Source of the DNA: Oerskovia douganii
GTDB taxonomy: Bacteria > Actinomycetota > Actinomycetes > Actinomycetales > Cellulomonadaceae
DNA: 60,403 nt
Direction of reading: 5' to 3'
NCBI RefSeq assembly: GCF_015142735.1
Contig: NZ_JACSPN010000024.1
Coordinates: 1-60,403, forward strand
Part shown: one piece after another, positions 37,976 to 53,633 of the stretch
How positions within the stretch are numbered: position 1 is the stretch's first letter
Layout: each line of letters opens with the position of its first letter
The notes under the pieces: model-generated
The model's input: the letters and a program-made list of their open reading frames with translations, nothing else
The model's database searches: none
Told to the model about the DNA's origin: nothing
Made by a program: the position numbers and the translations under genes

Positions 37976-39649
37976 TCACCCCACGCGGACCTCGATCGCG
38001 TCCCAGCCGCTCGACCCGTCGGGGGCGGGCGGCGCCTCGGTCGAGGTCTGGACCGTGCCGTCGGTGTCGGTCGCCCGGACCGCGAGGCGGTGGCTGCCCG
38101 CCGCGGGCGACGCCCAGGTCCAGGTCCACTGGCGCCAGGTGTCGGCCGAGACGGTCGCCGCGAGCTCGGCCTGCTCCCACTCCCCCTCGTCGACCCGCAC
38201 CTCGACGCCCGCGACACCCGTGTGCTGGGACCACGCGACGCCCGCGACGACCACGTCCCCGGCGGCGCCGGGCGACACCGTCGCACCCGCCCGGGGCACG
38301 TCGATGCGTGACGACGTCTTGATCGGCCCGCGCTCGGACCAGCCGCGCGTGGACCAGTAGGCGACGTCGTCGGCGAAGCGCGTGACCTTGAGCTCGACGA
38401 CCCACTTGGTCGCCGACACGTACCCGTACAGCCCCGGCACGACCATGCGCACCGGGAAGCCGTGCGCGAGCGGCAGCGGCTCGCCGTTCATGCCGACCGC
38501 GAGCAGGGACTCGCGGCCCGGGTCCGTGAGCACGTCGAGCGGCGTGCTCGCGGTCCAGCCGTCGGCGCTGCGCGAGAGCACCATGTCGGCGTCCGCGTGC
38601 GGACGGGCGCGGGCGAGCAGGTCGCGCAGCGGGTACCCGAGCCACACCGCGTTGCCGACCAGGTTCCCGCCGACCTCGTTCGACACGCACGTCAGGGTCG
38701 TGGCGTGCTCGACGAGGGGCAGCGCGAGCAGCTCCGCGAACGTGAGCTCGACCTCCTCCTCGACGAGCCCGACGACGCGCAGCCGCCAGTCGTCCGGGTT
38801 GACCTCGGGCACGCGCAGGGCGGTGTCGATGCGGTAGAAGTCGTCGTTGGGCGTCACGTAGGGCGTGATGCCGGGCACGGCGAGGTCTGCCCCGGCCGGG
38901 ACCACGACGGCGGGCCCGGTCGGGGCCGGGAGGCGGATCGCGTCACGCGCCGCGGTCACTGCCCGGGCAGAGGCGGACAGCACGCGCGACACCCCGCCGA
39001 CCACGATCGCGGTCGCGGTCGTGAGGCCCGCGAAGACGAGGAACGACCGGCGGTCGACCGCCTCGCGCCGACGGGCCGCGGTGAGCGGGGTCTCGGGGTC
39101 GGCCGGACCCGTCGTGGCCGCGAGCGCCGCGCTGCGCCACGTCCGCAGCCGCGCCGCGCCCGTCCGCAGCAGCATCACGCCGACGCCGACCCCCACCACG
39201 GTCGGCAGCGCCCACAGGGGCGTCGCGTCGGGTCGCGTGACGGCGGCGGCCACCCCCACGAGGCCGACCGCGACGAGCAGGACGGCGCCCCACGGCGGCC
39301 GTCGCGTCTCGAGGGTCCCGGCGGCGACGGCCGCGAGCGCCAGCACCACGACGATCCCGAGGATCAGCACGGTCTTGTCCGCGGTCCCGAACGTCTCGAC
39401 CGCGAAGTCCTTGAGCCACGGCGGCACCCGGTCCACGACCCCGGCGCCCACGACGAGGACGGGGCTCGACCCGGCGCCCACGACGAGCGCGACGAGCTCG
39501 GCCACGGCGAACGCCCCGAGGGCCGACACGATCCCGAGCAGCGGCGCCCACAGCCGTGACGGACCGGTGCGCGCCGCGCCGGACCCGCGGCCGGGCGTGC
39601 CGGGCGTGCCGGGCGTGCCGGGAGGGGTGGGCTCCGCCGTCGGGCTCAT
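37976..39649 (-). CDS. Membrane-bound sulfite-oxidase-like molybdopterin protein
   Basis: A 557-residue protein. Residues 33-160 hold about four transmembrane helices; a twin-Arg segment (DRRSFLVFAGLTTATAIVVGG, 199-219) precedes a further hydrophobic helix and an exported oxidoreductase domain. The domain has the Mo ligand Cys321 in TTLTCVSNEVGGNLVGNAVW, GYPLRDLLARA, HGFPVRMVVPGLYGYVSATKW and a C-terminal Ig-like dimer domain. This matches YedY/sulfite-oxidase relatives fused to a membrane anchor, known from actinobacteria; electron acceptor and substrate are unknown. The N-terminus PGTPGTPGTPGR is encoded by three tandem CCGGGCGTG units (39591-39617). Confidence 0.88.
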   Translation of the reverse strand: MSPTAEPTPPGTPGTPGTPGRGSGAARTGPSRLWAPLLGIVSALGAFAVAELVALVVGAGSSPVLVVGAGVVDRVPPWLKDFAVETFGTADKTVLILGIVVVLALAAVAAGTLETRRPPWGAVLLVAVGLVGVAAAVTRPDATPLWALPTVVGVGVGVMLLRTGAARLRTWRSAALAATTGPADPETPLTAARRREAVDRRSFLVFAGLTTATAIVVGGVSRVLSASARAVTAARDAIRLPAPTGPAVVVPAGADLAVPGITPYVTPNDDFYRIDTALRVPEVNPDDWRLRVVGLVEEEVELTFAELLALPLVEHATTLTCVSNEVGGNLVGNAVWLGYPLRDLLARARPHADADMVLSRSADGWTASTPLDVLTDPGRESLLAVGMNGEPLPLAHGFPVRMVVPGLYGYVSATKWVVELKVTRFADDVAYWSTRGWSERGPIKTSSRIDVPRAGATVSPGAAGDVVVAGVAWSQHTGVAGVEVRVDEGEWEQAELAATVSADTWRQWTWTWASPAAGSHRLAVRATDTDGTVQTSTEAPPAPDGSSGWDAIEVRVG

Positions 39650-39884: not shown

Positions 39885-40964
39885 GTGCTGTCCACGCTGC
39901 GCCGTGTCCGACCGTCCGTCCGCCCGTCCCGTCGCGCACCGGGCGCCGGCCCGACGGCGGCGCTCGCCCTGGCCTCGTCCCTCGCCCTCGCGGGGTGCTC
40001 GGCCGTCGGGGCCCCGTCGGCCGGTGGGTCGGACGAGTCGTCCGCGCCCGCCGGGACCGACGTCGCGGCGACGACGTACCCCCTGACGCTCGACAACTGC
40101 GGGTTCGACGTCACGTTCGACGCCGCGCCGGAGAAGGTCGTGACGATCAAGTCGAGCACGACCGAGATGATGCTCGCGCTCGGGCTGGGCGACCGGATCG
40201 TCGGGACCGCGTTCCCCGACGGGGCCGTGGCCGAGCGGTGGGCCGACGTCGCCGCCGACCTCCCGGCCGTCGCGACCCCGCTCGCGGACAAGGTCCCCGG
40301 CGCGGAGGCGGTCCTCACGCTCGAGCCCGACCTCGTGTACGCGGGGTGGGAGTCCAACCTCACCGCCGAGGGCGCGGGCGACCGCTCGACCCTCCAGCAG
40401 CTCGGCGTCCAGACCTACGTCTCGCCCTCGGCCTGCAAGGACGAAGCGTACAAGCCGGACCCGCTCACGTTCGACGACGTGTTCGCCGAGATCACCGAGG
40501 CAGGCCAGGTCTTCGACGTCGCCGGGACGGCGGAGGACCTCGTGGCGGCCCAGCGCGCAGGGCTCGACGCCGTCGAGCCCGACGACCGCGGGCTCACGGC
40601 CCTGTGGTACTCGTCCGGGTCGGACATCCCCTACGTGGGTGCCGGGACCGGTGCGCCGCAGATGATCATGGACGCCGTCGGGCTCGAGAACATCGCGGCC
40701 TCGGTCCGGGACACCTGGACGCCGTTCTCGTTCGAGGAGATCATCGCGGCCGACCCCGACGTGATCGTGCTCGTCGACTCGGCCTGGAACACGGCGCAGT
40801 CCAAGATCGACGCCCTGCAGGCCAACCCGGCCACGGCCAACCTCACGGCCGTGCGGGAGGACCGCTTCCTGACCGTCCCCTTCCCCGCGACCGAGGCGGG
40901 CGTCCGCAACGTCGACGCCGTCGAGGACCTCGGCGCGCAGCTCGCCGCGCTGACCGTCTCCTGA
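39885..40964 (+). CDS. ABC transporter substrate-binding lipoprotein, F420-0-importer type
   Basis: A 359-residue periplasmic binding protein of the helical-backbone (FecB/BtuF) class. The signal peptide ends in the lipobox LALAGC near residue 40. The mature protein starts with a Ser/Gly linker, then YPLTLDNCGFDVTFDAAPEK, VVTIKSSTTEMMLALGLGDR and IVGTAFPDG. These match, from memory, the actinobacterial clade proposed to bind F420-0 (TIGR03868). A cobalamin or siderophore binder of the same fold is the alternative. GTG at 39885 follows GGAG and gives a proper signal peptide; an upstream reading frame is longer but lacks one. It leads an operon with the permease and ATPase. Confidence 0.8.
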   Translation: MLSTLRRVRPSVRPSRRAPGAGPTAALALASSLALAGCSAVGAPSAGGSDESSAPAGTDVAATTYPLTLDNCGFDVTFDAAPEKVVTIKSSTTEMMLALGLGDRIVGTAFPDGAVAERWADVAADLPAVATPLADKVPGAEAVLTLEPDLVYAGWESNLTAEGAGDRSTLQQLGVQTYVSPSACKDEAYKPDPLTFDDVFAEITEAGQVFDVAGTAEDLVAAQRAGLDAVEPDDRGLTALWYSSGSDIPYVGAGTGAPQMIMDAVGLENIAASVRDTWTPFSFEEIIAADPDVIVLVDSAWNTAQSKIDALQANPATANLTAVREDRFLTVPFPATEAGVRNVDAVEDLGAQLAALTVS

Positions 40965-40978
40965 GAGGTCCGGCACCC

Positions 40979-42070
40979 GTGAGAAGCCTCGTGGCCGAGA
41001 CGAGCACCGCCCCGTCGGGTGAGCGCGCCCCCGCGCGCCGCTCCCCGGGAAACCGGCGCGCGGGGCCGTGGTGGCTCGCCGGGGCGTCGCTCGCGCTCGT
41101 CCTGAGCGTCGTGGTCGCCGTGACGATCGGCCCCGCGGACCTCACGTGGGGAGACGTGTGGCGCTCGATCGCGACGCACGTCGGGCTCGGCGGGCCGCTC
41201 GGGCTCGAACCGCTGCCGCTCCTGCAGGACGGCATGGTGTGGCAGCTCCGCCTGCCGCGGGTCCTCACGGCCGCGGCCGTCGGGGCAGGGCTCGCGATCT
41301 GCGGAGCCGTCATGCAGTCCCTCACGCGCAACCCGCTCGCCGACCCGTACCTGCTCGGGCTCTCGTCGGGCGCCTCGCTCGGCGCGGTCCTCGTCCTGGT
41401 CCTCGGCGTGAGCGTCCTGCTGCCCGTCGCGGCGTTCGGCGGCGCCGTCCTGGCCCTGGTCGCGGCGCTCGCGCTCGCCGGTTCGCTCGGGGCGGTCACC
41501 CCCACACGGACGGTCCTCGCGGGTCTCGCGGTGAGCCAGCTCGCGGCCGCGGCGACGTCGTTCATCATCTTCTGGTCCGCGACAGGGGACTCCTACCGCG
41601 AGATCCTGTCGTGGCTCATGGGGTCGGTCGCGGGGGCCACCTGGACGTCCGTGGCGATCGCGGGCGGGGCCGTGCTGGTCCTGGGCACGCTCCTCGCCTC
41701 GACGGGCTCGGTGCTCGACGCCTTCACGTTCGGCGACACCGCGGCCGCGGGCCTCGGCATCGCCGTGAACCGGACCCGCTGGCTGCTGCTCGTGGGGGTC
41801 GCGCTGCTCACCGGAGCGCTGGTCTCGGTCTCGGGCGCGATCGGGTTCGTGGGCCTGATCCTGCCGCACGCCGTCCGGCTCCTGACGGGCGCCCGGCACC
41901 GCGTGCTGCTGCCCCTCGCGGCACTGCTCGGCGGGTCGTTCCTGGTGTGGGCGGACACGCTCGCCCGCACGATCTTCGCCCCGCGCGAGCTGCCCGTGGG
42001 CATCCTCACGGCCGCGATCGGTGCGCCCGTCTTCGCGCTCATCCTGTGGCGAGGGAGGCGGGCGCTGTGA
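40979..42070 (+). CDS. ABC transporter permease, F420-0-importer type
   Basis: A 363-residue FecCD/BtuC-type permease with about ten helices. Family motifs are LRLPRVLTAAAVGAGLAICGAVMQ, NPLADPYLLGLSSGASLGAV, SFIIFWSATGDSYREILSWLMGS and GAIGFVGLILPHAVRLLTGARHR, the last holding the coupling helix. The N-terminus is a hydrophilic 30-residue extension. The GTG at 40979 is used; GTG at 40991 is also possible. The stop overlaps the ATPase start (GTGA), so the two are coupled. The cassette proposed for F420-0 includes this permease type (TIGR03869). Confidence 0.85.
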   Translation: MRSLVAETSTAPSGERAPARRSPGNRRAGPWWLAGASLALVLSVVVAVTIGPADLTWGDVWRSIATHVGLGGPLGLEPLPLLQDGMVWQLRLPRVLTAAAVGAGLAICGAVMQSLTRNPLADPYLLGLSSGASLGAVLVLVLGVSVLLPVAAFGGAVLALVAALALAGSLGAVTPTRTVLAGLAVSQLAAAATSFIIFWSATGDSYREILSWLMGSVAGATWTSVAIAGGAVLVLGTLLASTGSVLDAFTFGDTAAAGLGIAVNRTRWLLLVGVALLTGALVSVSGAIGFVGLILPHAVRLLTGARHRVLLPLAALLGGSFLVWADTLARTIFAPRELPVGILTAAIGAPVFALILWRGRRAL

Positions 42071-42879
42071 GCGGGGAGAGCGCTGTGGTCCCGGGCGCGG
42101 AGGGCGGTCGTGGGCTCGACGCGTCGCGCGTCTCGTGGTCGGCCGGGACACGGCTCGTCCTCGACGGGGTCGACGCGACCGCTCCCCCGGGCGCCGTGAG
42201 CGGGCTGCTCGGACCGAACGGCTCGGGGAAGTCGACGCTGCTGCGCGCGATCGCGGCCACGCAGGTACCGGACGCGGGCGAGGTCCGGTTCGACGGCGAG
42301 GACCTCCTGGGCATGCCGCGGCGTCGTCGGGCCCGTCGGGTCGCGCTCGTCGAGCAGGACGCGTCGACCGACCTGCCGATCTCGGTGCTCGACGCGGTGC
42401 TGCTCGGCCGCATCCCCCACCGCCCGCTCCTCGCGGGGGACACCGACGCCGACCGCGCCGTGGCCCGCGAGGCCCTGGGCCGCGCCGGGGTCGAGGAGCT
42501 CGCCGGGCGGTCGCTCGCGACGCTGTCCGGCGGTGAGCGTCAGCGCGTGCACATGGCTCGTGCGCTCGCCCAGGACCCGGCCCTTCTGCTCCTCGACGAG
42601 CCCACCAACCATCTCGACATCGCGGCCCAGCTCGCGGCGATGACGGTGCTGCGCAAGCTCGCCGCCGACGGCGTGACGGTCCTCGCGGCGCTGCACGACC
42701 TCAACCTCGCGGCGGCCTCGTGCGACCACGTCGTGGTCCTCGCGGAAGGGCGCGTCGTCGCGGCAGGACCGGTCAGGGAGGTGCTCGTGCCTGCCGTGAT
42801 CGAACCGGTCTACGGTGTCCGCTGCGACGTGCTGACCCACCCACGGACGGGGCGCCCGGTGCTGGTGTTCGGCGACTGA
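42067..42879 (+). CDS. ABC transporter ATP-binding protein, F420-0-importer type
   Basis: A 270-residue ATPase of the FecE/BtuD group. Walker A is GLLGPNGSGKSTLLRAIAAT, the Q-loop EQDASTDLPISV, the signature LATLSGGERQRVHMARALAQ, Walker B LLLLDEPTNHLDI and the H-loop His in LAALHDLNLAAASCD. The C-terminus ends in VRCDVLTHPRTGRPVLVFGD. It starts with GTG in a 4-base overlap with the permease. A 25-bp perfect hairpin (repeat copy A) follows its stop by 21 bases. Confidence 0.9.
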   Translation: MSGESAVVPGAEGGRGLDASRVSWSAGTRLVLDGVDATAPPGAVSGLLGPNGSGKSTLLRAIAATQVPDAGEVRFDGEDLLGMPRRRRARRVALVEQDASTDLPISVLDAVLLGRIPHRPLLAGDTDADRAVAREALGRAGVEELAGRSLATLSGGERQRVHMARALAQDPALLLLDEPTNHLDIAAQLAAMTVLRKLAADGVTVLAALHDLNLAAASCDHVVVLAEGRVVAAGPVREVLVPAVIEPVYGVRCDVLTHPRTGRPVLVFGD

Positions 42880-42900
42880 CCCTGCTGTGTCCCCCGGGGT

Positions 42901-42959
42901 GCCGAGAACGGGGTTGAGGTCGTTCTGCTGGTCGGAACGACCTCAACCCCGTTCTCGGC
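42901..42959. repeat. Palindromic repeat, copy A (also a terminator)
   Basis: GCCGAGAACGGGGTTGAGGT plus CGTTC (42901-42925) pairs perfectly with its complement at 42935-42959 around a 9-base loop, a 25-bp stem. It ends the importer operon and also lies before the stop of the convergent CoA-binding gene. The same arm recurs at copies B, C and D; with copy D it shares about 30 bases with one mismatch. Confidence 0.85.
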
Positions 42960-42979
42960 GCCCTGCGGGGCCCGGCCGG

Positions 42980-43405
42980 TCAGACGGCGGGGCCCAGGCG
43001 CGGCCACTCGATCGCGGGGCAGCGGTCCATGACCATGTCCAGACCGGCGTCGCGGACCCGCGCGAGGGCGTCCTCGTCGACCACGCCGAGCTGGAACCAG
43101 ACGGCCTTCGCCCCGATCGCCACGGCCTGGTCCGCGACGTCCCCGGCGAGCTCGGACCGCACGAACACGTCCACCACGTCGACCGGGAACGGGATGTCGG
43201 CCAGCGAGGCGTACCCCTGCTCGCCGTGCACGGACTGGCCCGACGGGTGGACCGGCACGATCCGCTTGCCCTGACGCTGGAGCAGCCGCGCCACCCCGTA
43301 GGCAGCGCGTGCCGAGTTGTTCGACAGACCCACCACGGCCCAGGTCTCGGTGTCCGCGAGGACCGTGCGGATCGTGGCGTCGTCGCCCCAGCTCTGTTCG
43401 CTCAT
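42980..43405 (-). CDS. CoA-binding domain protein (YccU-like)
   Basis: A 141-residue single Rossmann-fold protein of the succinyl-CoA-ligase-like CoA-binding family (PF13380 type). The motifs are WAVVGLSNNSARAAYGVARLL, RIVPVHPSGQSVHGEQGYASL, VDVVDVFVRSELAGDVADQA and AKAVWFQLGVVDEDALARV. The role of these stand-alone proteins is not established. The ATG at 43405 lies two bases from a UUCG-type hairpin (43407-43422) that would cover the ribosome-binding region. Confidence 0.9.
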   Translation of the reverse strand: MSEQSWGDDATIRTVLADTETWAVVGLSNNSARAAYGVARLLQRQGKRIVPVHPSGQSVHGEQGYASLADIPFPVDVVDVFVRSELAGDVADQAVAIGAKAVWFQLGVVDEDALARVRDAGLDMVMDRCPAIEWPRLGPAV

Positions 43406-43406
43406 A

Positions 43407-43422
43407 CCGGGGCGAACCCCGG
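43407..43422 (-). promoter_or_regulatory. UUCG hairpin at the CoA-binding protein start
   Basis: In the transcript, CCGGGG-UUCG-CCCCGG is a perfect 6-bp stem with a stable tetraloop, ending one base before the ATG. It would hide the ribosome-binding site, or it may end transcription from the DUF1772 gene 65 bases upstream. Confidence 0.4.
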
Positions 43423-43486
43423 CGTGCGAGCGGCTATTCCAGGTCCACCTCGACGACCGGACCAGGACCGGGCCCGACGGCGCCGC

Positions 43487-44062
43487 TCATCCCCCGACGA
43501 GCGTCACCAGTCCCAGGGTCAGGAGCAGGGCCGCCGCCGCGCACGCGAGGGTCCGCACGTGGTTCCAGGCGACCCAGCGCCCCAGGAAGACCCGCCAGAC
43601 CTGGTCGCGCTCCGCCGTCGGGCTGGTGGCCCGGACCTTCACGTCGCGCACCCCTGCGCCCGAGGCCGGGACAGCGCGGGGCGAGGAGGCCGAGACCGCG
43701 GCGTCCGCGGCCTCGAGGCGGTCGTTGAGCGGGACGTTGACCGCCGCCGTCACCCCGATCCCGCCCACGAGGTAGACCACGGCACCCGCGACGACGAGCG
43801 GCATGCCCGCCTCGCCCAGCCGGGTAGCCGCCACGACGCCGAGCACCGTCACCAGCCCGGTCGTCACGAGCAGGAGCGACCCGAACGGCACCCTCGTCGC
43901 ATGACGGTTGATCGCGGCCATCGCCGCCGCGCCGACGTCCGGCGCGACCGACCGCAGACCGGCCATGACGAAGGTCGAGAACGCGAAGAGCACTCCCCCG
44001 ACCAGGGCGCAGCCCACGGCCGCGACCACGACCGCCCACCCCACCGCGCCGACCGCGTCCAT
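43487..44062 (-). CDS. DUF1772 (anthrone-oxygenase-like) membrane protein
   Basis: A 191-residue membrane protein with four hydrophobic helices and the family pattern MAAINRHATRVPFGSLLLVTTG, VNVPLNDRLEAADAA, WRVFLGRWVAWNHVRTLACAAA. DUF1772 members resemble anthrone oxygenases. The start ATG shares bases with the stop of the NmrA-like gene (ATGA), so the two are coupled and probably act together under the divergent AraC regulator. Confidence 0.87.
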   Translation of the reverse strand: MDAVGAVGWAVVVAAVGCALVGGVLFAFSTFVMAGLRSVAPDVGAAAMAAINRHATRVPFGSLLLVTTGLVTVLGVVAATRLGEAGMPLVVAGAVVYLVGGIGVTAAVNVPLNDRLEAADAAVSASSPRAVPASGAGVRDVKVRATSPTAERDQVWRVFLGRWVAWNHVRTLACAAAALLLTLGLVTLVGG

Positions 44063-44988
44063 CAGTGCACCTCCGAGAGAGCGGACGGGGCTGCGGTGGA
44101 GGTCGGGGACCACACGGCGGCCTCGCGGCGCGCGAACCCGGCGAAGTCCCGGGGCTCGCGCCCGAGCGCCTCGCGGACCCCGTGGGCCAGGTGCGCGTTG
44201 CGACCGTCGAGAACCTCCTCGAAGAGGTAGCGCACGAGGTCGACGTCGTCCGCCGGGAGCCCCGCGGCACGCAGGCCGGCCGCGAACTCGTCGCCCGTGA
44301 CGGTCCGGAGGCGGACCTCCCGACCGCTCGCCGCACCGATCTCCGCGAGCGCCTCGCCGAACGTCAGCAGTCGCGGCCCCGTGAGCTCGTGGACCAGGCC
44401 CTCGTGCCCGGGCTGGGTCAGTGCGGCGACCGCGACCTCGGCCACGTCCTCGAGGTCGACGAACGGCTCGACCACGCCGTCGACCGGAAGGTGGACCACG
44501 CCGCCGAGCACGGGGTCCAGCAGGAAGCTCTCGCTGAAGTTCTGCGCGAACCACGCGCAGCGCACGACCGTGCGCGCAGGGAAGGCCTCGGCGACGAGCC
44601 CCTCGGCCCGCTGTGCCTCGGGCTCGCCCCGGCCGGAGAGCAGGACCAGGCGCCGGACCCCCTCCCGGGCGGCGACCCCGGCGAGGTCGGCGACGACCTC
44701 GGGGACGCCGGGGGCTGCGAGGTCCGGGGCGACGGCCACGTAGACGGCGTCGGCTCCCGCGACGGCCGTGGCCCAGGTCGCCGGGTCGTCCCAGTCGAGC
44801 CGCACCTCGGTGCTGCGCGAGACGGCGCGGACGCGGACGCCCGCCGCGGTGAGGCGGGCGGCGACACGACGACCCGACTTGCCCGTCGCGCCGACGACGG
44901 CGACCAGCGGCGCGACGCCGTCCGGTGCCGCGGGTGCTGCGGGTCCTGCGGGTGCTGCGGTTTCTGCGGGGGGCTGGTGCGCGGTCAT
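44062..44988 (-). CDS. NmrA-type NAD(P)-binding protein
   Basis: A 308-residue atypical SDR. The dinucleotide motif is VAVVGATGKSGRRVAARLTAAG near residue 29, followed by RLDWDDPATWATAVAGADAVYVAV and a NmrA/HSCARG-like body (WFAQNFSESFLLDPVLGG). An N-terminal Pro/Ala stretch precedes the fold. The ATG at 44988 follows AGGAG. It is divergent from the AraC-type gene; the shared region 44989-45125 would hold the promoters. Confidence 0.88.
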   Translation of the reverse strand: MTAHQPPAETAAPAGPAAPAAPDGVAPLVAVVGATGKSGRRVAARLTAAGVRVRAVSRSTEVRLDWDDPATWATAVAGADAVYVAVAPDLAAPGVPEVVADLAGVAAREGVRRLVLLSGRGEPEAQRAEGLVAEAFPARTVVRCAWFAQNFSESFLLDPVLGGVVHLPVDGVVEPFVDLEDVAEVAVAALTQPGHEGLVHELTGPRLLTFGEALAEIGAASGREVRLRTVTGDEFAAGLRAAGLPADDVDLVRYLFEEVLDGRNAHLAHGVREALGREPRDFAGFARREAAVWSPTSTAAPSALSEVH

Positions 44989-45125
44989 GTCGGTCTCCTG
45001 TGATCGATGGTCCGGTGCTGTGGTTTCGAGTCAACAGGTACCGTCCGAGACGTTCCATGGCCCAGAGGCTCGTCTGCATGTCCGTCCGTCTTCCACCGGG
45101 CAGCGGGGCGGCGTACGGTCGAGGC

Positions 45126-46078
45126 ATGGACGCTGTCGCCGGACTGCTCGACGGGCCCCGCGCGCGGGGCGCCTTCCTGCTGCGCTCGCTCCTCGCGCCG
45201 CCGTGGTCGATGCGCATCGAGGACGAGGCGCCGCTCACGCTCGTACCCGTCGTGCACGGGACGGCGTGGATCGGGATGGACGCCGGGCCGGGACCCGACG
45301 AGCCGCGGCTCGACGCCCACCTCGTCGCGGGCGACGTCGCCCTGCTGCGCGGCCCACGCCACTACACCGTGGCCGACGCCCCCGGGACGCCACCGCAGAT
45401 GGTGAGCGACGCCGTCGGGGCCTGCCGGGCGGTCGGCGACCAGCCGTCGCCCCTCGTCGACCTCGGCGTCCGGACCTGGGAAACGACCCCGACGGTCCGA
45501 CCGTCCTGCTGACCGGGACCTACCCCCTCGACGGCGAGGTCGGCGGCCGCCTGCTGAGCGTCCTGCCGCCGCTGCTCGTGCTGCGCCGGGGAGACCTCGA
45601 CGCCGACCTCGTGTCGCTCCTCGCCCGCGAGATGGCGCACGACCGGCCCGGGCAGGAGGCCGTGCTCGACCGGTTGCTCGACATCCTGCTCATCGGCGCC
45701 CTGCGCGCCTGGCTCGACCGCGGCGAGGCGCCGGGGTGGTACCGCGCCGACGCCGACCCCGTGGTCGGGCACGCGCTGCGGCTCATGCACCACGAGCCGG
45801 CCACGGCCTGGACGGTCGAGTCCCTCGCGCGGTCCGTCGGGCTGTCGCGCGCCGCGTTCTCGCGCCGGTTCACCGAGCTCGTGGGCGAGCCGCCCATGAG
45901 CTACCTGACCGGGTGGCGCCTGACCCTCGCGGCCGACCTGCTGCTGGAACCCGGGGCGACGGTCGGGTCGGTGGCCCGCCAGGTCGGGTACGGGACACCG
46001 TTCGCACTGAGCGCAGCGTTCACACGCGTGCGCGGCATGAGCCCGACCGCGCACCGGGAACGGGCCGGGGCCGCCTGA
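45126..46078 (+). pseudogene. AraC-family regulator, frameshifted
   Basis: The first frame (45126 onward) encodes a cupin-type sensor (MDAVAGLLDGPRARGAFLLR, LRGPRHYTVADAPGTPPQMV) but runs into a stop at 45510-45512. From about 45479 the -1 frame continues as NDPDGPTVLLTGTYPLDGEV, LPPLLVLRRGD and a full AraC helix-turn-helix (TVESLARSVGLSRAAFSRRF; VARQVGYGTPFALSAAFTRV) to 46078. One missing G in the TGGG run at 45477-45480 would join the two parts into a normal 318-residue protein. This is either a real inactivation or a homopolymer error. It is divergent from the NmrA-DUF1772 pair, which it likely controls. Confidence 0.85.
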
Positions 46079-46109
46079 ACGGCCACGGCCGGACCGGGGC
46101 CCTGCCCGC

Positions 46110-46164
46110 CGAGAACGAGGTTGCGGTCGTCATACCCGCCGAGACGACCGCAACCTCGTTCTCG
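46110..46164. repeat. Palindromic repeat, copy B
   Basis: CGAGAACGAGGTTGCGGTCG plus TC (46110-46131) pairs perfectly with 46143-46164, a 22-bp stem with an 11-base loop. The arm agrees with copy A at 21 of 25 positions. It lies 31 bases past the AraC gene stop and can end its transcription. Confidence 0.8.
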
Positions 46165-46249
46165 AGGGCGCGCAACGTCGTCCTCGGCCGGCAGCCGGTC
46201 ACGACGCCGGGCGCTCGTGCGCTGGCCGGTGCACGCGCCGGCGCGCACC

Positions 46250-46672
46250 ATGGCTGTCATGCCCATCCCGCACGCGGTCGCCCGGACCAACAGGCGTCTC
46301 CTCAACCCCCTCGTGCTCCGCATGTCGTCGCGCGTGCCCCCCTTCGCGACGGTCCACCACCACGGGCGGCGCAGCGGGCGCCCCTTCGCGACACCGGTCA
46401 TGGCGTTCCGGGAGCCGGCGTCGGCGACCGCTCCGCACGAGGTCCGCGTGGTGATCGCCCTGACCTACGGCCCCGACGTGGACTGGCTCAGGAACGTCGA
46501 GGCCGTCGGTCTGTTCGGGCTCACGCGCGGTGGGCGCGGCTACGTCGTCGACGACCTGCGCCGCCTGCACGGCGACGCCGGGCTCCGGCTCGTGCCGGGC
46601 GTGATCCGGGTCGCGCTGCGGGTGCTGCGCGTGGACGAGTTCCTCGACGGGCGGGTGGGTCCGCCCCGCTGA
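46250..46672 (+). CDS. Deazaflavin (F420)-dependent reductase, Ddn-like
   Basis: A 140-residue split-barrel protein of the deazaflavin-dependent nitroreductase/quinone reductase family (DUF385). Family features are TVHHHGRRSGRPFATPVMAF and VVIALTYGPDVDWLRNVEA, where the YGxxxDWxRN pattern contacts F420. Members reduce quinones or nitroimidazoles with F420H2. The start is ATG 46250 or 46259; neither has a strong ribosome-binding site. Its presence implies that this organism uses F420. Confidence 0.85.
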   Translation: MAVMPIPHAVARTNRRLLNPLVLRMSSRVPPFATVHHHGRRSGRPFATPVMAFREPASATAPHEVRVVIALTYGPDVDWLRNVEAVGLFGLTRGGRGYVVDDLRRLHGDAGLRLVPGVIRVALRVLRVDEFLDGRVGPPR

Positions 46673-46732
46673 GCGGCACCCCGGCACCCCGGCGCCACGG
46701 CGTCGGCGGGCCCCGGCTGCCATGATGGGGGC

Positions 46733-47338
46733 ATGGCCAACGACCTGTGGTTCACCGGCGACCCGGAAGCCGACACGCTGCTGTCCACCGACCCGTTCGC
46801 GCTGCTCGTCGGGATGCTCCTCGACCAGCAGGTCACCATGGAGTCGGCGTTCGCCGGGCCGCTCAAGATCTCCCAGCGCATGGGCGGGTTCGACGTGCAC
46901 CGCATCGCCGCGGCCGAGCCCGAGTCGTTCGCCGCGATGGCCGCCACTCCCCCGGCGATCCACCGCTACCCCGGCTCCATGGCGGGTCGCGTGCAGGCCG
47001 TCGCCCAGGTCGTCGACGAGCAGTACGACGGCGACGTCACGCGCCTGTGGACCGACCCCGGACCCGACGGCAGCGCCCCCGACGGCCCGCTCGTCCTCAA
47101 GCGGCTCAAGGCCCTGCCGGGTTTCGGCGAGCAGAAGGCGAAGATCTTCCTCGCGCTCCTCGGCAAGCAGTACGGCGTCCAGCCCGAGGGGTGGCGCGAG
47201 GCAGCGGGGGCGTACGGCGAGGAGGGTGCGCGCCGCTCGATCGCCGACGTCGTCGACCAGCACTCGCTCGACCAGGTCCGCGAGACCAAGAAGGCGGCCA
47301 AGGCCGCGGCGAAGGCGGAGCGCGCGGCGAAGGGCTGA
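46733..47338 (+). CDS. HhH-GPD-type base-excision repair protein
   Basis: A 201-residue helix-hairpin-helix protein of the small actinobacterial HhH-GPD family. The N-terminal LLVGMLLDQQVTMESAF resembles the glycosylase core, and the hairpin is LKRLKALPGFGEQKAKIFLALLGKQ. The catalytic Asp expected after the hairpin is not obvious (the region reads GVQPEGWREAAG), so activity is uncertain. The C-terminus is Lys/Ala-rich. The ATG at 46733 is near the upstream gene and a short plus-strand unit with the VOC gene is possible. Confidence 0.85.
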   Translation: MANDLWFTGDPEADTLLSTDPFALLVGMLLDQQVTMESAFAGPLKISQRMGGFDVHRIAAAEPESFAAMAATPPAIHRYPGSMAGRVQAVAQVVDEQYDGDVTRLWTDPGPDGSAPDGPLVLKRLKALPGFGEQKAKIFLALLGKQYGVQPEGWREAAGAYGEEGARRSIADVVDQHSLDQVRETKKAAKAAAKAERAAKG

Positions 47339-47481
47339 CCGCCCGGGAGCGCTCCTGCCCGACGGCGTCGCTCACCCCGGCGGACGGGTGCCCGTCGCGC
47401 TCGACGGACGTAGCGTGGAGAAGCGGGGACGCCGCCCGGCGCCCGGCCGCACCGCCCAGCACCCCGGTCGAGGAGGACCCC

Positions 47482-47847
47482 ATGGCTCACGGCGACATCA
47501 CGCACATCGACATCCCGGTCGGCGACACCCAGGCCGCCCGCACGTTCTACAGCGGGCTGTTCGGCTGGGACATCGCGGAGGTCCCCGGCTTCGAGGGGTA
47601 CCCCATGTGGCGGGCACCCAACCAGATCAGCGGCGGCGGGCTCGCACCACGGGACGCGAGCTTCACGACCCCGCGCAGCTACGTCGAGGTCGACTCGATC
47701 GACGACACCCTCGCGCAGGTGTCCTCCCTCGGCGGGAAGGTGCTCATGGGCAAGTCGCAGATCAGCCCGACGAGCTGGTGGGCGATCTTCGAGGACCTCG
47801 ACGGGAACCAGCTCGGCCTCTACGAGGGCGTCACGTCGGCCGAATGA
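47482..47847 (+). CDS. VOC-family (glyoxalase-like) protein
   Basis: A 121-residue vicinal-oxygen-chelate protein. Features are ITHIDIPVGDTQAARTFYSGLFGW (first metal His), then SYVEVDSIDDTLAQVSSLGGKV and AIFEDLDGNQLGLYEG, where the usual Glu ligand lies near the end. The fold is clear, the substrate is not. The ATG at 47482 follows a strong AGGAGG. Confidence 0.9.
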   Translation: MAHGDITHIDIPVGDTQAARTFYSGLFGWDIAEVPGFEGYPMWRAPNQISGGGLAPRDASFTTPRSYVEVDSIDDTLAQVSSLGGKVLMGKSQISPTSWWAIFEDLDGNQLGLYEGVTSAE

Positions 47848-47933
47848 CGAGGGTCTTCGTGGACGCACGGCGGAACCGGGGGTCTCGGGGCGCGGCGGGT
47901 GCCGTGGCCGCGGGTGCGTCAGGGTCAGTCCGG

Positions 47934-47961
47934 CCGCCGTGCCCGGGAGGCACGTCGGCGG
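47934..47961 (+). terminator. Hairpin after the VOC gene
   Basis: CGTGCC (47938-47943) pairs with GGCACG (47949-47954), with an outer CCGC/GCGG stem, 86 bases past the VOC stop. Confidence 0.4.
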
Positions 47962-47980
47962 CGCGCTGTACGGTGCTCGC

Positions 47981-48043
47981 ATGACTCCACGGGTGCGTCC
48001 GCGCGGGAACCAACCCCGCCCTCTCAGGCGGGTGTTGTCCTGA
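47981..48043 (+). CDS. Possible 20-residue upstream reading frame
   Basis: ATG ACT CCA ... TGA encodes MTPRVRPRGNQPRPLRRVLS, basic and Pro/Arg-rich, ending 13 bases before the next gene. No strong ribosome-binding site is seen. A hairpin CCCGCC/GGCGGG (48015-48032) lies inside it. It could be a leader peptide or chance. Confidence 0.25.
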   Translation: MTPRVRPRGNQPRPLRRVLS

Positions 48044-48056
48044 GACGAGGTGCCTC

Positions 48057-48212
48057 GTGGCACATTCACCCCACCGCCGGTGGAAGGGCTGCCGGTTGTG
48101 CAGCCCGCACAAGATCCGCGGGATCGGCGACGCCGCGCGCCTGCCCTTCCGCGACCTGCGCAAGATCGGACGCGTCCGTCGCTGGAACCGTCACGACGTC
48201 GACGACGAGTAG
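48057..48212 (+). CDS. Small CxxC basic protein
   Basis: A 51-residue protein, MAHSPHRRWKGCRLCSPHKI then RGIGDAARLPFRDLRKIGRV and RRWNRHDVDDE. It is strongly basic with a CxxC pair (Cys12, Cys15) and two nearby His residues, suggesting half of a zinc site and nucleic-acid binding. I believe similar small proteins are common in actinobacteria, but I cannot name the family. GTG at 48057 follows GAGG; ACGAG-GUGC-CUCGU (48045-48058) folds that site against the start codon, which could limit translation. Confidence 0.65.
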   Translation: MAHSPHRRWKGCRLCSPHKIRGIGDAARLPFRDLRKIGRVRRWNRHDVDDE

Positions 48213-48224
48213 TCCCTGAGGAGG

Positions 48225-48255
48225 GCTGTGCGCCGACCCCCGGTGGGCGCACAGC
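48225..48255. terminator. Bidirectional hairpin
   Basis: GCTGTGCGCC (48225-48234) pairs perfectly with GGCGCACAGC (48246-48255) and the interior pairs further. It lies 13 bases past the CxxC gene stop, and faces the stop of the convergent gene at 48335. Confidence 0.65.
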
Positions 48256-48334
48256 CACTCGTCCCGAGGAGGCGGGGCCGTGCGACACCTTCGCCTCGTG
48301 CGCCGTTCGCGACACCTGCCGTTCGGAACGCGCC

Positions 48335-48724
48335 TCACGCCGGTCCGAACACGACTCTTTCGTCCGGGTCGTCGCTGCGCCGGGGCCTGAGCCGGGCGGG
48401 GGCCGGCCACGGCAGCTCGAACCGGACGACGGGCGCGTCGATCGCCCCGAAGTCGTCGGTCTGGACGACGACGCGCTCGGGTGTGACCTCGACGAGGCGG
48501 ACGCGGATCGGCTCGACGCCGTCCCCTTCGAGCATCCACACGTCGCCGAGCCACGAGAGCCCGGTGGCATCGAGGGCTTCCTCGGCGTCGAGCCAGTCGA
48601 CCGGCTCGGTGAGCGCGTGCCCCAGCAGGGAGACGGCGACCCACCCGTCACCGTCGGGACGGATCCAGCCGATGTGCTCACGGTCGTCGGGACGGCGGTG
48701 CGGGATCCAGTCGGCGGGAAGCAT
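48335..48724 (-). CDS. Conserved-looking protein of unknown function
   Basis: A 129-residue soluble protein (MLPADWIPHRRPDDREHIGW ... PERVVVQTDDFGAIDAPVVR). It is Trp/Asp-rich with alternating strands, suggesting a beta-rich fold. No domain is recognised. The ATG at 48724 lacks a strong ribosome-binding site. Its stop faces the CxxC gene, and a copy of the palindromic repeat (C) lies 74 bases upstream of its start. Confidence 0.65.
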   Translation of the reverse strand: MLPADWIPHRRPDDREHIGWIRPDGDGWVAVSLLGHALTEPVDWLDAEEALDATGLSWLGDVWMLEGDGVEPIRVRLVEVTPERVVVQTDDFGAIDAPVVRFELPWPAPARLRPRRSDDPDERVVFGPA

Positions 48725-48797
48725 CAGGGAACGATACCGAGCGGCCGGCCGATCCGCCCAGCAGATTCTGTGCTGGGCGTCCGGCTCCGGTGCCCCT

Positions 48798-48883
48798 GCC
48801 GAGCACGACCTTCCGTTCAGTCGACCACGACCTTGCGGTCGCCAGACCCCTCAGAACGACCACAACGTCGTTCTCGGCACCCG
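48798..48883. repeat. Palindromic repeat, long form, copy C
   Basis: An 86-base element. Its right end, GAACGACCACAACGTCGTTC plus TCGGCACC, is the family arm; its left end, GCCGAGCACGACCTTCCGTT, is a degenerate partner arm; a 35-base middle (AGTCGACCACGACCTTGCGG...) is shared with copy D. Copies C and D are identical at 78 of 86 positions and lie in the same orientation. Confidence 0.85.
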
Positions 48884-48930
48884 GTCCCCTGAGCGATCGC
48901 GGGCCGTCGGACCGGAAGGGCGGAACAAGC

Positions 48931-49443
48931 TCAGCCAGCACCGCCCGAACGACCGCGGTTCGCCGCCGCAGCATACCGGATCCGGCGGGTCCGACCGCCC
49001 CCGGCGAGGGCGTCCAGGACGTCGGCACGGGTCGCGGAGCTCGCCGCGCGCAGCTGGAGCCAGTCGGACCAGCACTCGACGTCGAGCCCGTCGCCCAGCG
49101 ATCGGAGCTCGCCGCCCGATGCGGCGACGGCGCCCGACACGGACTCGAGGATCGCCAGCTCCGCGGCCCGCCGGGCGACGAAGTTGGCCACTGTCCAGTC
49201 GCTCGTGAGCCCCACCCAACGCGCCCGCTCGACGGGCGGGACGAGCTCGAGGGCCACGACGACGGCTCCGCCCGCCATCACGTGGTCGCTGTCGTCGGCC
49301 ACCGCCCGGAAGAGAGGCTCGAGCGCGCCATGCTGCAGCGCCTTCTGGTACAGCGCCCATCGTGCGTGCTCGTCGGCCAGGTCGCCGGAGAACGCAAGGT
49401 CCCGCGCGAGCCGACGGAGCTCCGCCCTCGGTTCCCGCCGCAC
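48931..49443 (-). CDS. Helical protein of unknown function between repeats C and D
   Basis: A 170-residue, mostly helical protein (DLADEHARWALYQKALQHGA, VMAGGAVVVALELVPPVERA, DVECWSDWLQLRAASSATRA). The pattern of short amphipathic helices resembles HEAT-like repeat proteins, but no family is recognised. I place the start at GTG 49443, because the frame upstream of it runs straight into repeat copy D. It is bracketed by direct repeats C and D. Confidence 0.6.
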   Translation of the reverse strand: MRREPRAELRRLARDLAFSGDLADEHARWALYQKALQHGALEPLFRAVADDSDHVMAGGAVVVALELVPPVERARWVGLTSDWTVANFVARRAAELAILESVSGAVAASGGELRSLGDGLDVECWSDWLQLRAASSATRADVLDALAGGGRTRRIRYAAAANRGRSGGAG

Positions 49444-49464
49444 TACGCGCCCGCCCCAGCAGTC

Positions 49465-49550
49465 ATCGAGCAGGACCTTCCGTTCAGTCGACCACGACCT
49501 TGCGGCCGCCAAAACCCTCAGAACGACCACAACCCCGTTCTCGGCACCCG
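49465..49550. repeat. Palindromic repeat, long form, copy D
   Basis: An 86-base element ending in GAACGACCACAACCCCGTTC plus TCGGCACCCG, 3 bases beyond the cofE stop. It may serve as the cofE terminator region. It is 78/86 identical to copy C, and its right arm matches the copy A arm with one mismatch over about 30 bases. Confidence 0.85.
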
Positions 49551-49553
49551 ACG

Positions 49554-50573
49554 TCAGCCCTGTTGAGGATTTCCGGTCCCCTCCCGGAACCCCTCGGTGA
49601 ACCCGTCCCGGTACCCGTCGGCGTACCCGGCCTCGCGGGCGAGCCGTTCGGCACCGCCGGGCGCAGCACCGCCGGGCGCCGCAGCACCGACCGGCGCACC
49701 CACCCCCGGCCTGCCCTCACCGGCAGCGCCCGCACGGCCTGCCGCCACCCCCCGCGCGTACGCCTCCGCGGAGCCCTCGCGGAACATGTCGGTCCCCGAG
49801 TCCCGCACGAGCACGCGCGCCCCCGGCCCGTCGTCGTCGGTCACGAACCGCCCGAGCCCGCGCACGACGGCCACGGGGCGCCCCGCGGCCTTGCCCCGGA
49901 CGAGCTCGGAGGCCGCGGCGATCTGGTCCGCGACCGCCGTCACGGTCACGGACAGCTCACGCCCGTGGGAGTCGACGCCGCCGCGCAGGTCGTCGAGCGC
50001 GACCACCCCGGCGACCCCGATCGCCAGGTCGGTGAGCCCTTCTCGCCACGCACGCCCGGCCGTGTCGGACACGACGACCCCGACGCGGACCCCGAACCGT
50101 TCCGCGAGCGCCGCCCGCAGAGCGCGCGCCGAGGCGTCGGGGTCGACGGGCAGCAGCAGCACGGTGCCCTCGGGGGTGTTGGACGCGTCGACGCCCGCTG
50201 CGGCCATGACGAGGCCGAGCCGGTTCTCGACGATCCGCAGCACGCCCCCGGGTGACGGCCGGGTCGCGACGACGCGCACGGTCTCGTCGGTGATCGCCTG
50301 CTCGCGGTCGGTGGCCGCGACGACGCGCCCTTCGGCCTTGGACACGACCTTGCTCGTGACGACCACGACGTCGCCGTCGTGCAGCCCGCCCTCGCGGGCG
50401 AGCGCGTCGCCCACGATGCGCGCCAGGTCGTCACCGGGCAAGATCTCCCCGATGCCCGACGGCGCCACGACCGTGAAGCGCGTGTCGTCGCCCGCGGCAC
50501 GCCTCGCCTCGGGCGACGCCTGCCGCTCGGCGCGAGCTCCGCCGTCGGGCAGCGGGACGGACGTGCCCGTCAC
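49554..50573 (-). CDS. cofE: Coenzyme F420-0:L-glutamate ligase
   Basis: Adds gamma-linked glutamates to F420-0. The 339-residue protein has the CofE fold: [75 protein letters not shown] and [25 protein letters not shown]. It lacks the C-terminal nitroreductase-like domain of mycobacterial FbiB. Instead residues from about 245 form a Gly/Ala-rich tail ending in repeated GYxDG-type units ([16 protein letters not shown]). GTG at 50573 overlaps the LLM-oxidoreductase stop (GTGA), so the enzyme is coupled to an F420 user. No other F420 synthesis gene is in the window. Confidence 0.93.
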
Positions 50574-51568
50574 CGGACGAGCTTCGGCAGGACGTCGCGC
50601 GAGAACGTGTCGATCCACTCGCGCTGGTTGCGGCCCACGTTGTGGAGGTAGATGCGGTCGAAGCCCAGGTCGACGAACTTCTGGATGTAGGCGCGGTGCA
50701 CGTCCGGGTCGGACGAGATGACCAGGCGCCCCTCGAAGTCCTCGGGCCGGACGAGCTTGGCCATCTGCTCGAAGTCGAACGGCGAGCGGATGTCGGCCTT
50801 GGGGAACTTCATGCCGCCGTTGGGCCACTCGGTCATGGCGTTCGTCAGCGCCTCCTCGTCGGTCTCGGCCCACGACATGTGGAGCTGGAGGACCTTGGGC
50901 ATGGTCTGCGGGTCGCGGCCGGACTCGCGGACGCCGTCGTCGAACTTGCCGAACAGCATCGAGATCTTCTCGAGCGGGGCGCCCACGGTGATGAGGCCGT
51001 CGGCGTGCTTGCCCGCGCGCTTCGCGGTCACGGGGCCGGCCGTGGCGACGAGGATCTCGGGGGCGACCTCGGGCATGGTCCACAGCCGCGTGGACTCGTG
51101 CTTGTAGAACTGCCCCGAGTGCTTGGTGTCCTTGCCCGCGAGCGAGGCGGCGAAGAGCTTCTTGATGATGTCGATGGCCTCGAACATGCGGTTGATGCGC
51201 TCGGGGGCCTCGGGCCAGTACTGCGCCGTGACGTGCTCGTTCAGGGCCTCGCCCGAGCCCAGGCCCAGCCAGTGCCGCCCGGGGTACATCGCGGCGAGCG
51301 TCGCCGAGGCCTGCGCGACCATCGCGGGGTGCCAACGGAACGTGGGCGCCGTGACGCCCGGGCCCAGGTCGCCGCGCGTGCGCTCGCCGAGGGCCGACAG
51401 GACGTTCCACACGAACGCCGAGTGCCCCTGCGCGGGGACCCAGGGCTGGAAGTGGTCCGCGGCCATGACGCCGGAGAAGCCCTTGCTCTCGGCGTACTCG
51501 GAGAGGGCGATCACCTCGGTCGGGTGGAACTGCTCGAGCATGGCGGCGTAGCCGATCGTCAAGTCCAT
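50570..51568 (-). CDS. F420-dependent LLM-class oxidoreductase (G6PDH-like family)
   Basis: A 332-residue bacterial-luciferase-fold enzyme. Features include [78 protein letters not shown] and the C-terminal [20 protein letters not shown]. These match the TIGR03557-type family related to F420-dependent glucose-6-phosphate dehydrogenase, with its conserved ADHF and [10 protein letters not shown]420-site segments. The true substrate is unknown. It starts with ATG at 51568, upstream of and overlapping cofE. Confidence 0.92.
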
Positions 51569-51704: not shown

Positions 51705-53633
51705 TCAGGTGAACAGCGGGGTGAGCGCCGTGTACTCCTCGACCGAGCCGTCGCGCAGGCACACCTCGATGATCTGGCGACCCAGCGGGTCCAGGTCGTC
51801 GGTGAGGAACTCCTGGAGCTCGCTCTTGAAGAAGTCCGTGATGATCCTCGCGCCGGCGTCGTAGGCCTCGACGCCCACCTGCGACTGCATCTCGGGCTTG
51901 AGGAACGTCGGGCGCACGAGCTGCCCGTCGATCTTCATCTCCTGGAGCGTGTACCCGAACAGCGGGCACCGCGAGGGGGTCAGCTCCTCGGTGCGGAACT
52001 TGCCGCCGCCACGGCGCGCCAGGTACTCGCGGGTGAGCCACTCGGCCGCGAAGTCGACCTTGTACGCGCCGATGTGCTGGTTGGGCGTGAGCACGTAGCG
52101 CGTGCGGTCCATGTCCACGAGCTGGCGCAGGAGCAGGTTCGCGGCCGCGACCTTGGTGCCCGTGGAGAACGGCCAGTACGACCCGACGCCCTCTGCGACC
52201 ATGCCGCCGTGGGCCAGCTTGTCGGTCGCCGACTTGGACTCGCCGATCGAGGGGTTCTTGTCTCCGCGCGGGGCGATGAGCCGCCAGATCCACGCGAGCG
52301 ACGGCGGCACGATGTGCATCATGCCCATGATCCCGTAGGTCGGGTTGTCGCGGGTGCAGGCCGGCATCCGGGCGCCGAAGGTGCGCACGTCGACCTCCTC
52401 GGCCCCCGTGACGTCGGTCAGGAGACGACGGGGCACGACCACGCGAGGGTTGGGGCAGCGCTTGCCCGTCGAGTCGAGCGTGTGCTCCCACGGCAGGACG
52501 GTCGCGTCCGGGACGCCGTCGATGTTGAAGAAGACGAGCGGCTGGTCGGGGTGGATGCAGGCCCGCTCGAGGTGGGCGTCCTGGCCGTAGCCCGTGAGGT
52601 TGTCGACGCGCACGAACCAGCCGTCCTCGGCGTCGGCGACCACGAGGCGCCCCTCGCCGGTCTGCAGGTCGACGTGGCACAGCGTCATGTCGTCGGTCAC
52701 GGGGTCCAGCGCGCTGGACTCGCCGAGGTTGATGACGTAGGGCTCGTCGGTCACGACGTTGGTGCCCAGCAGGATGCGCCCGTCCTCCTGGCGGCGGATC
52801 TCCTGGCACATCTCGGACTTCCCGCCGCCCGACGCGCCCTCGTGCATGATGACGGTCTCGTTCTCGTAGGGGGTCGTGACGCGCACCGACGACGCGTGCG
52901 CGGTGACCCACCCCTCCTGCTCGCCGACGTCGAGCAGGACGGAGAAGACGCCCTTCTTGGCGCTGGGGCCCGGGTAGAGGTTGTAGGCGAAGACCTCGTG
53001 CAGCGTCTCGGAGCGGTCGTGCACGACGACCTGGCGGCCGTCGAAGTGCGTGTGGCGGAAGGGCGGCGCGACGTAGAGGATCGAGCGCGGCTCGAAGGGC
53101 CCGATCTCGTCGAACGTGACCCAGCCCTGCAGGTCCACGAGCGTCAGCGCGAAGAACGCGGAGTTGACGGGGCAGATCGCGAGCGAGGGGTAGCCGTGCG
53201 TGAGGCCGCCGGCCTTGAAGGGCACGACGACGAGGTCCTGGCCCGCGAGCCAGTCGAGCGTCTCGGCCTTGACCTGGTCGAACCCGGTCCCGAACACGTC
53301 GCGGTAGCGCGGCTTGTCGGTGGGCAGGTCGTCGGCGATGCGCATGCAGTCGGGGTCCCGACGGCGCATGTAGTCCTCGGGGTAGTTCACGGCGATCCCG
53401 TTCTTGCAGCGGACCACCTCGGCCTCGGGGACCGGCGTGCCGAACACGTCGTACTCGACCGTGAAGCGCGGCCCTCCCTCGGGGCCGAGCGCGAGCTGGT
53501 ACAGCTCCTCACGGGAGGCGGGGACGATCACGGTGGCGCACGCATCCAGGGCGGCCTGGACAGCGGGGGGAAGGACCATGCCGGCAGGGATGCTCCCGGT
53601 ACCGTGCACGGCCACGCTGTCGATCAATGTCAT
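51705..53633 (-). CDS. PEPCK-like P-loop protein (DUF4914 type)
   Basis: A 642-residue soluble protein. The P-loop MHEGASGGGKSEMCQEIRRQ (GASGGGKS at 266-273) resembles the kinase-1 loop of the PEP-carboxykinase/HprK group. Other segments are FNIDGVPDATVLPWEHTLDS, YGIMGMMHIVPPSLAWIWRL and GDKNPSIGESKSATDKLAHG. The family is, to my recollection, DUF4914, sometimes mis-annotated as PEPCK. It does not match the known GTP- or ATP-PEPCK active sites, so gluconeogenic activity should not be assumed; a kinase-like role is possible. It stands alone, divergent from valS. The ATG at 53633 is clear. Confidence 0.75.
   Translation of the reverse strand: MTLIDSVAVHGTGSIPAGMVLPPAVQAALDACATVIVPASREELYQLALGPEGGPRFTVEYDVFGTPVPEAEVVRCKNGIAVNYPEDYMRRRDPDCMRIADDLPTDKPRYRDVFGTGFDQVKAETLDWLAGQDLVVVPFKAGGLTHGYPSLAICPVNSAFFALTLVDLQGWVTFDEIGPFEPRSILYVAPPFRHTHFDGRQVVVHDRSETLHEVFAYNLYPGPSAKKGVFSVLLDVGEQEGWVTAHASSVRVTTPYENETVIMHEGASGGGKSEMCQEIRRQEDGRILLGTNVVTDEPYVINLGESSALDPVTDDMTLCHVDLQTGEGRLVVADAEDGWFVRVDNLTGYGQDAHLERACIHPDQPLVFFNIDGVPDATVLPWEHTLDSTGKRCPNPRVVVPRRLLTDVTGAEEVDVRTFGARMPACTRDNPTYGIMGMMHIVPPSLAWIWRLIAPRGDKNPSIGESKSATDKLAHGGMVAEGVGSYWPFSTGTKVAAANLLLRQLVDMDRTRYVLTPNQHIGAYKVDFAAEWLTREYLARRGGGKFRTEELTPSRCPLFGYTLQEMKIDGQLVRPTFLKPEMQSQVGVEAYDAGARIITDFFKSELQEFLTDDLDPLGRQIIEVCLRDGSVEEYTALTPLFT

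Follow-up and report, generated by a model that had tools for sequence, protein, structure and literature searches.

The window considered here is a stretch of 60,403 nucleotides from Oerskovia douganii (positions 1 to 60,403 of contig NZ_JACSPN010000024.1, assembly GCF_015142735.1). It encodes a three-gene transport cassette composed of a substrate-binding lipoprotein, a permease and an ATPase, along with cofE, which lies approximately 7 kb away on the opposite strand. A preliminary description of this DNA had read these genes as a salvage system that takes up F420-0, the substrate of CofE. Salvage of a cofactor by the cassette is well supported, because no FO synthase was found in the genome, CofE is present, and the cassette is carried by only two of the 54 sampled genomes with a match to the FO synthase subunit CofH. 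F420-0 as the simplest substrate did not survive, since the genome also encodes CofC and CofD. Judged from gene content, gene neighbourhoods and the correlated evolution of binding-protein residues with cofD state, the cassette appears to be a high-affinity deazaflavin importer, which in this organism is on balance most likely to take up FO, the neutral precursor of coenzyme F420. In relatives that lack cofC and cofD, members of the same family probably import F420-0, and the protein encoded in the window may itself take both compounds.

All three subunits exceed the NCBIfam cut-offs of the "putative F420-0 ABC transporter" models TIGR03868, TIGR03869 and TIGR03873 within one cassette (Table 1), which bears out the resemblance that the preliminary description had proposed to check with these models. 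The margin of the ATPase over its cut-off is 20 bits only. Matches to the Peripla_BP_2 and FecCD superfamilies are also found in the cassette proteins, and Cys38 of the binding protein, the apparent lipobox cysteine, is kept in at least 90% of 57 aligned rows. The binding protein has its closest named kin in Oerskovia. In 59 of 59 fetched loci (longer than 8 kb, with a binding protein scoring above 200 bits to that of the window), the permease and ATPase genes stand beside the binding-protein gene.

F420 genes of the genome and the missing intermediate

The genome is 99.99% complete. A CofG profile search returned no match (E up to 1e-3; again to 1e-6), and a CofH search returned none at E up to 1e-20, weaker matches falling outside that limit. 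A hidden FO synthase was considered and rejected: the CofG and CofH models, empty here, detect FO synthase in two genomes of the same order, G020 and G025, where CofG is over its cut-off in both and CofH in G020 alone, the G025 match scoring below. The window, as had been observed earlier, holds no gene for making F420-0. This does not extend to the genome, where cofD (303.7 bits) and cofC (115.7 bits) lie side by side on contig C22, both above cut-off; the genome-wide search that had been proposed thus agreed with the earlier expectation for FO synthase and not for cofC and cofD. The absence of cofC and cofD, a trait of the founding genomes and not of the models themselves, is accordingly not a property of this genome. 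Within the genus, cofD was found in seven of seven genomes searched and CofG in none of these seven, three of which were also searched for CofH.

A nitroreductase gene is situated within 1 kb of the C22 cofD-cofC pair. Its product weakly resembles the C-terminal domain of FbiB (TIGR03553, 47.1 bits against a cut-off of 249.55), and seven of the eight genomes in the same CofD clade have relatives of it at their fetched cofD loci. For the route from FO to F420, cofC, cofD and cofE are therefore present, with the nitroreductase as a candidate only for the dehydro-F420-0 reductase. As these genes are encoded and an FO synthase was not found, the missing intermediate would be FO and not F420-0. The NADPH:F420 reductase model, whose cut-off is 149.8, reached only 76.3 bits in this genome.

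In the proposed mechanism, the lipoprotein would bind FO leaked by other microbes outside the cell, and the FecCD/BtuC-type permease and the ATPase would carry it inward. CofC and CofD would then attach a phospholactyl or phosphoenolpyruvyl group to FO, reduction of the dehydro form may fall to the nitroreductase encoded nearby, and CofE would add glutamates to give the F420 that the LLM enzyme adjoining cofE would use. Sources of external FO have been reported: FO was identified by mass in the medium of FbiC-overexpressing Mycobacterium smegmatis (PMC3012119), the supernatant of Mycetohabitans contains FO (PMC11104420), and the fluorescence of a Streptomyces venezuelae fbiC mutant rises in wild-type spent medium (PMC12282290). 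Additionally, yeast provided with CofC, CofD and FbiB is reported to convert added FO to F420 (PMC10949242). These papers support cross-feeding with FO, and they also support a rival in which no importer takes part.

Distribution of the cassette and residues associated with cofD

Profile searches for TIGR03868, CofH, CofD, CofE and CofC were made in 297 genomes of the order. CofG was searched in 80 chosen genomes: all 39 with both cassette and cofD, all 19 that lack cassette and CofH, 16 from among the 32 cassette genomes whose sole gene of the set is cofE, a further four from the genus, and lastly G020 and G025. Within these 80 it was found in the last two only. The TIGR03868 binding protein is above cut-off in 74 of the 297 genomes. 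Of these, 39 have cofD, cofC and cofE with no CofH match, and 33 have no cofD match (32 with only cofE, and one, G223, which is 69% complete, with none); G020 and G025 make up the remaining two, in which an FO synthase is also present. For the 33 genomes without cofD, its absence makes F420-0 import the best reading.

A CofH match was found in 54 genomes, 30 over the cut-off and 24 below it, with CofG tested in G025 alone among the latter 24. Fifty-two of the 54 lack the cassette, and one of the 30 over the cut-off has it. Among the 110 genomes with cofD, the cassette occurs in 39 of 58 without a CofH match versus two of 52 with one (p = 5e-13, uncorrected for kinship). When only CofH matches over the cut-off are counted, the corresponding figures are 40 of 82 and one of 28. 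The genes are also often linked: cofE lies within 10 kb of the cassette in 58 of the 74 genomes, and 20 of the 41 cassette genomes with cofD have it within 5 kb of the gene for the binding protein, a set in which three genomes of the genus do not have cofD near the cassette.

On a tree of 79 binding proteins, the presence or absence of cofD changes approximately 11 times, at least eight of these on well-supported branches, and such repeated changes indicate that both gene sets are served by a single family of transporters. In the corresponding 79-row table, His or Lys occupies position 306 in 32 of 36 cofD-negative versus three of 43 cofD-positive rows. A scan for correlated evolution (Pagel) comprised 215 column-class tests over columns 60-356 in four residue classes, with at least eight rows per state and at most five gaps; the long or partial proteins of G275, G301 and G096 were dropped from the residue tests and kept in the 79-row table. 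A basic residue at 306 gave the highest likelihood ratio of the 215 tests (27.1), a value reached in none of 378 null simulations run with rates fitted for 306 (largest 16.2). It was followed by a basic residue at 136 (26.5), then by positions 299 (24.0) and 308 (17.8).

A second set was drawn from 80 loci, of which 50 were chosen, presumed repeats and near-duplicates being left out, and 49 were searched. In these 49 named genomes outside the tree, 306 is basic in five of eight cofD-negative versus one of 41 cofD-positive genomes (Fisher 0.0002). With 125 rows, the likelihood ratios are 51.7 for Ser at 299 (40 of 43 cofD-negative versus 11 of 82 cofD-positive), a post hoc value as this column was recoded Ser/not-Ser after the scan; 38.1 for a basic 306 (36 of 43 versus four of 82); 31.5 for a basic 136 (41 of 43 versus 29 of 82); and 11.0 for a basic 308. 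Independent-pair tests run in the same direction and are significant for 299 only (median p 0.03). The state of cofD thus appears to co-evolve with positions 136, 299 and 306, such that a basic residue (136, 306) or Ser (299) tends to go with the absence of cofD. A gain of positive charge is what chemistry predicts for proteins that must accommodate the anionic F420-0.

A broader proposition is offered more tentatively than FO import itself. The TIGR03868 family may be one of deazaflavin-vitamin importers with repeated switches between FO and F420-0, in which 136, 299 and 306 form a specificity code tied to the loss and gain of cofC and cofD. Importers of the cofD-associated type, the one in the window among them, would then be the first that are dedicated to FO. 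Roughly one quarter of the order as sampled (72 of 297 genomes, cassette-bearing and without a CofH match) would depend, as F420 auxotrophs, on FO or F420-0 that others leak.

Alternative substrates and evidence against FO import

Several observations weigh against import of FO by this cassette. FO is uncharged and reportedly crosses membranes readily by diffusion (PMC8498797), which may make an importer superfluous. Among the 58 genomes with cofD and no CofH match, 19 have no cassette over the cut-off, and the cassette is therefore not required with the cofC, cofD and cofE gene set. Two of these 19, G275 and G301, each have a sub-cut-off binding protein of the TIGR03868 kind; the other 17 (including G037, G040, G052, G127, G153, G180 and G194; loci L074-L091 in part) have cofC, cofD and cofE without CofG, CofH or cassette, and must obtain FO by diffusion, through another carrier, or by making it in an unrecognised way. 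The cofD and the cassette of this genome lie on different contigs. Within the binding protein, S299 and K136 match the cofD-negative type and 306 alone is FO-like, the independent-pair test for 306 is not significant (0.22) at low power, and a pocket-lining role of 136, 299 and 306 is putative, drawn from residue associations.

The CofD of this genome is a further point of this kind, as it falls in a divergent clade (branch 1.66) with those of G001, G005, G020, G300, G108, G062 and G097. Yet of the 82 columns that are conserved across 49 ordinary CofD rows, the eight members of the clade all agree in 54, among them those of D37 and D49 in this CofD, 12 apart. The metal-binding aspartates of FbiA, 45 and 57, have the same spacing of 12 (PMC8498797). 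This divergent CofD was possibly gained after loss of the usual cofD. In the C22 locus (L034:7297-10620), and likewise in G020, G300, G108 and G062, the divergent cofD shares its locus with cofC and the nitroreductase.

The strongest competitor, which we regard as unlikely though not negligible, is that the cassette imports F420-0 and that FO diffuses in as a second supply for CofC and CofD. The hypothetical-equivalog NCBIfam models are named for F420-0, and in the 33 cassette genomes without a cofD match nothing earlier than F420-0 would be usable. The diffusion of FO (PMC8498797), the 17 genomes with neither a detected FO synthase nor a cassette, and the S299 and K136 that the window protein shares with most cofD-negative proteins all fit this account. 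However, the co-evolving residues and the linkage of cofD to the cassette would be unexpected under a constant substrate. Less probable still is a broad deazaflavin importer of FO, F420-0 and perhaps short F420-n, for which the loss of cofC and cofD would mirror the supply from neighbours. The many changes of cofD state on the tree and the mixed signature of the window protein, with S306 like cofD-positive proteins and S299 and K136 like most cofD-negative ones, agree with such breadth, whereas the tracking of cofD state by 136, 299 and 306 argues for discrimination.

An ordinary importer of vitamin B12, heme or siderophores placed near cofE by chance is very improbable: the superfamily is shared, EitA and BtuC are the next models, and the ATPase comes within 22 bits of the cut-off of a heme ATPase model (239 versus 261), yet the F420-0 cut-offs are all passed, EitA (132 versus 640) and the Btu models fall far below theirs, and cofE is close to the cassette in most cassette genomes. 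A best match to BtuF or to siderophore families, which the preliminary description had named as evidence against its reading, was thus not seen. As an Rfam scan of the window at the gathering score gave no match such as a cobalamin riboswitch, import of B12 or of a siderophore was rejected on both the model cut-offs and this negative scan.

Known systems and remaining features of the window

Like BtuFCD, the cassette combines a binding protein, a FecCD/BtuC permease and one ATPase, and its binding protein presumably shares the class III type with that system. It differs in missing the cut-offs for BtuF (27.2 versus 234), BtuC (237.8 versus 461) and BtuD (128.7 versus 281), and in having no riboswitch match. 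With the putative F420-0 transporter of TIGR03868, TIGR03869 and TIGR03873, it shares the three passed cut-offs, a nearby cofE and the lack of a detected FO synthase; in contrast, this genome keeps cofC and cofD, and FO is the missing compound. The description of that family draws chiefly on genomes in which cofE alone is kept. Selengut and Haft reportedly put forward the F420-0 transporter family in 2010 as a proposal. By sequence, the best solved structure is PDB 4mlz ("periplasmic binding protein"; 453 bits to the family profile), which we take to be a structural-genomics entry from Jonesia denitrificans. In the alignment it has Arg136, Ser299 and Lys306, the cofD-negative signature, whereas the window protein has Ser306. 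The engineered yeast fed FO runs the same enzyme steps and makes F420 from external FO, and the words "uptake" and "transport" are absent from the main text of that report (PMC10949242).

A literature search, with most subscription journals outside its coverage, found no paper with the phrases tried for an F420 or FO transporter, none devoted to such a transporter by its title, and no mention of TIGR03868. The F420-0 transporter family is already proposed in the NCBIfam names; neither the FO reading nor the residue signature turned up in the literature so covered. The guess of F420-0 import is hereby sharpened to a testable question, namely which deazaflavin is taken up and from which residues this can be told. 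If FO import holds, FO would be a public good and F420 a shared vitamin of the community, many actinobacteria with cofC, cofD and cofE would be auxotrophic for FO, and the engineering of F420 supply would benefit from natural FO importers.

Table 1. Features of the window, with profile scores in bits against model cut-offs
Feature	Position	Strand	Evidence
Substrate-binding lipoprotein	39885-40964	+	TIGR03868, 481.7 vs 392.4
K136, S299, S306 of the binding protein	40290-40292, 40779-40781, 40800-40802	+	Specificity-associated residues
Permease, FecCD/BtuC type	40979-42070	+	TIGR03869, 530.9 vs 437.35; PF01032
ATPase	42067-42879	+	TIGR03873, 392.1 vs 372.4; GTGA overlap with permease
Inverted repeat, terminator-like	42901-42959		Perfect 25-base arms; just 3' of ATPase
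Possible Ddn-like deazaflavin reductase, weak	46250-46672	+	TIGR00026, 42.1 vs 46.35
cofE, F420-0:gamma-glutamyl ligase, no FbiB C-terminal fusion	49554-50573	-	TIGR01916, 223.2 vs 180.65; PF01996
LLM oxidoreductase, family holding F420-dependent glucose-6-phosphate dehydrogenase	50570-51568	-	TIGR03557, 276 vs 210.4; GTGA overlap with cofE

The cofE without an FbiB fusion, recognised in the preliminary description, passes TIGR01916 and has no match to the FbiB C-terminal domain. The missing fusion was rejected as an informative character, as none of 72 chosen genomes, FO-synthase genomes included, passes TIGR03553. For the F420-dependent LLM gene said to be coupled to cofE, the GTGA overlap and the TIGR03557 match stand, while the best E-value belongs to TIGR03885, a model named FMN-dependent, at a score under the TIGR03885 cut-off. 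The glucose-6-phosphate dehydrogenase model is not passed, and a score of 210.4 stays under a cut-off of 420, the wider TIGR03557 alone being passed. In 46 of 53 loci a relative adjoins cofE in the same orientation, which favours use of F420. The Ddn-like F420 reductase that had been placed at 46250 fared poorly, scoring below the TIGR00026 cut-off, and a Pfam search at E 1e-4 gave nothing for its reading frame.

The hairpin after the ATPase gene has a folding energy of -82.2 kcal/mol for 42885-42975 (z -10.7), and its arms are identical on both strands. The below-gathering Rfam microRNA names all fall on it. Single-arm copies at 49521-49545 and 48854-48878 (one and three mismatches) mark it as a repeated intergenic element. 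A protein with a PF00174 molybdopterin-binding oxidoreductase domain is encoded at 37976-39649 (-), divergent from the cassette, and a DUF4914 protein (1055.6 bits) at 51705-53633 (-), upstream of the LLM gene. When the window is taken together with the first 60 loci fetched, a dihydropyrimidinase family is found near the cassette or cofD in 18 genomes (e.g. L043:1063-5975, L042 and L063). Genes that often accompany it encode a carbon-nitrogen hydrolase, an LLM oxidoreductase of TIGR03842, an ABC transporter and a regulator resembling MocR. Such loci raise the idea that the breakdown of pyrimidines or hydantoins may include a step dependent on F420.

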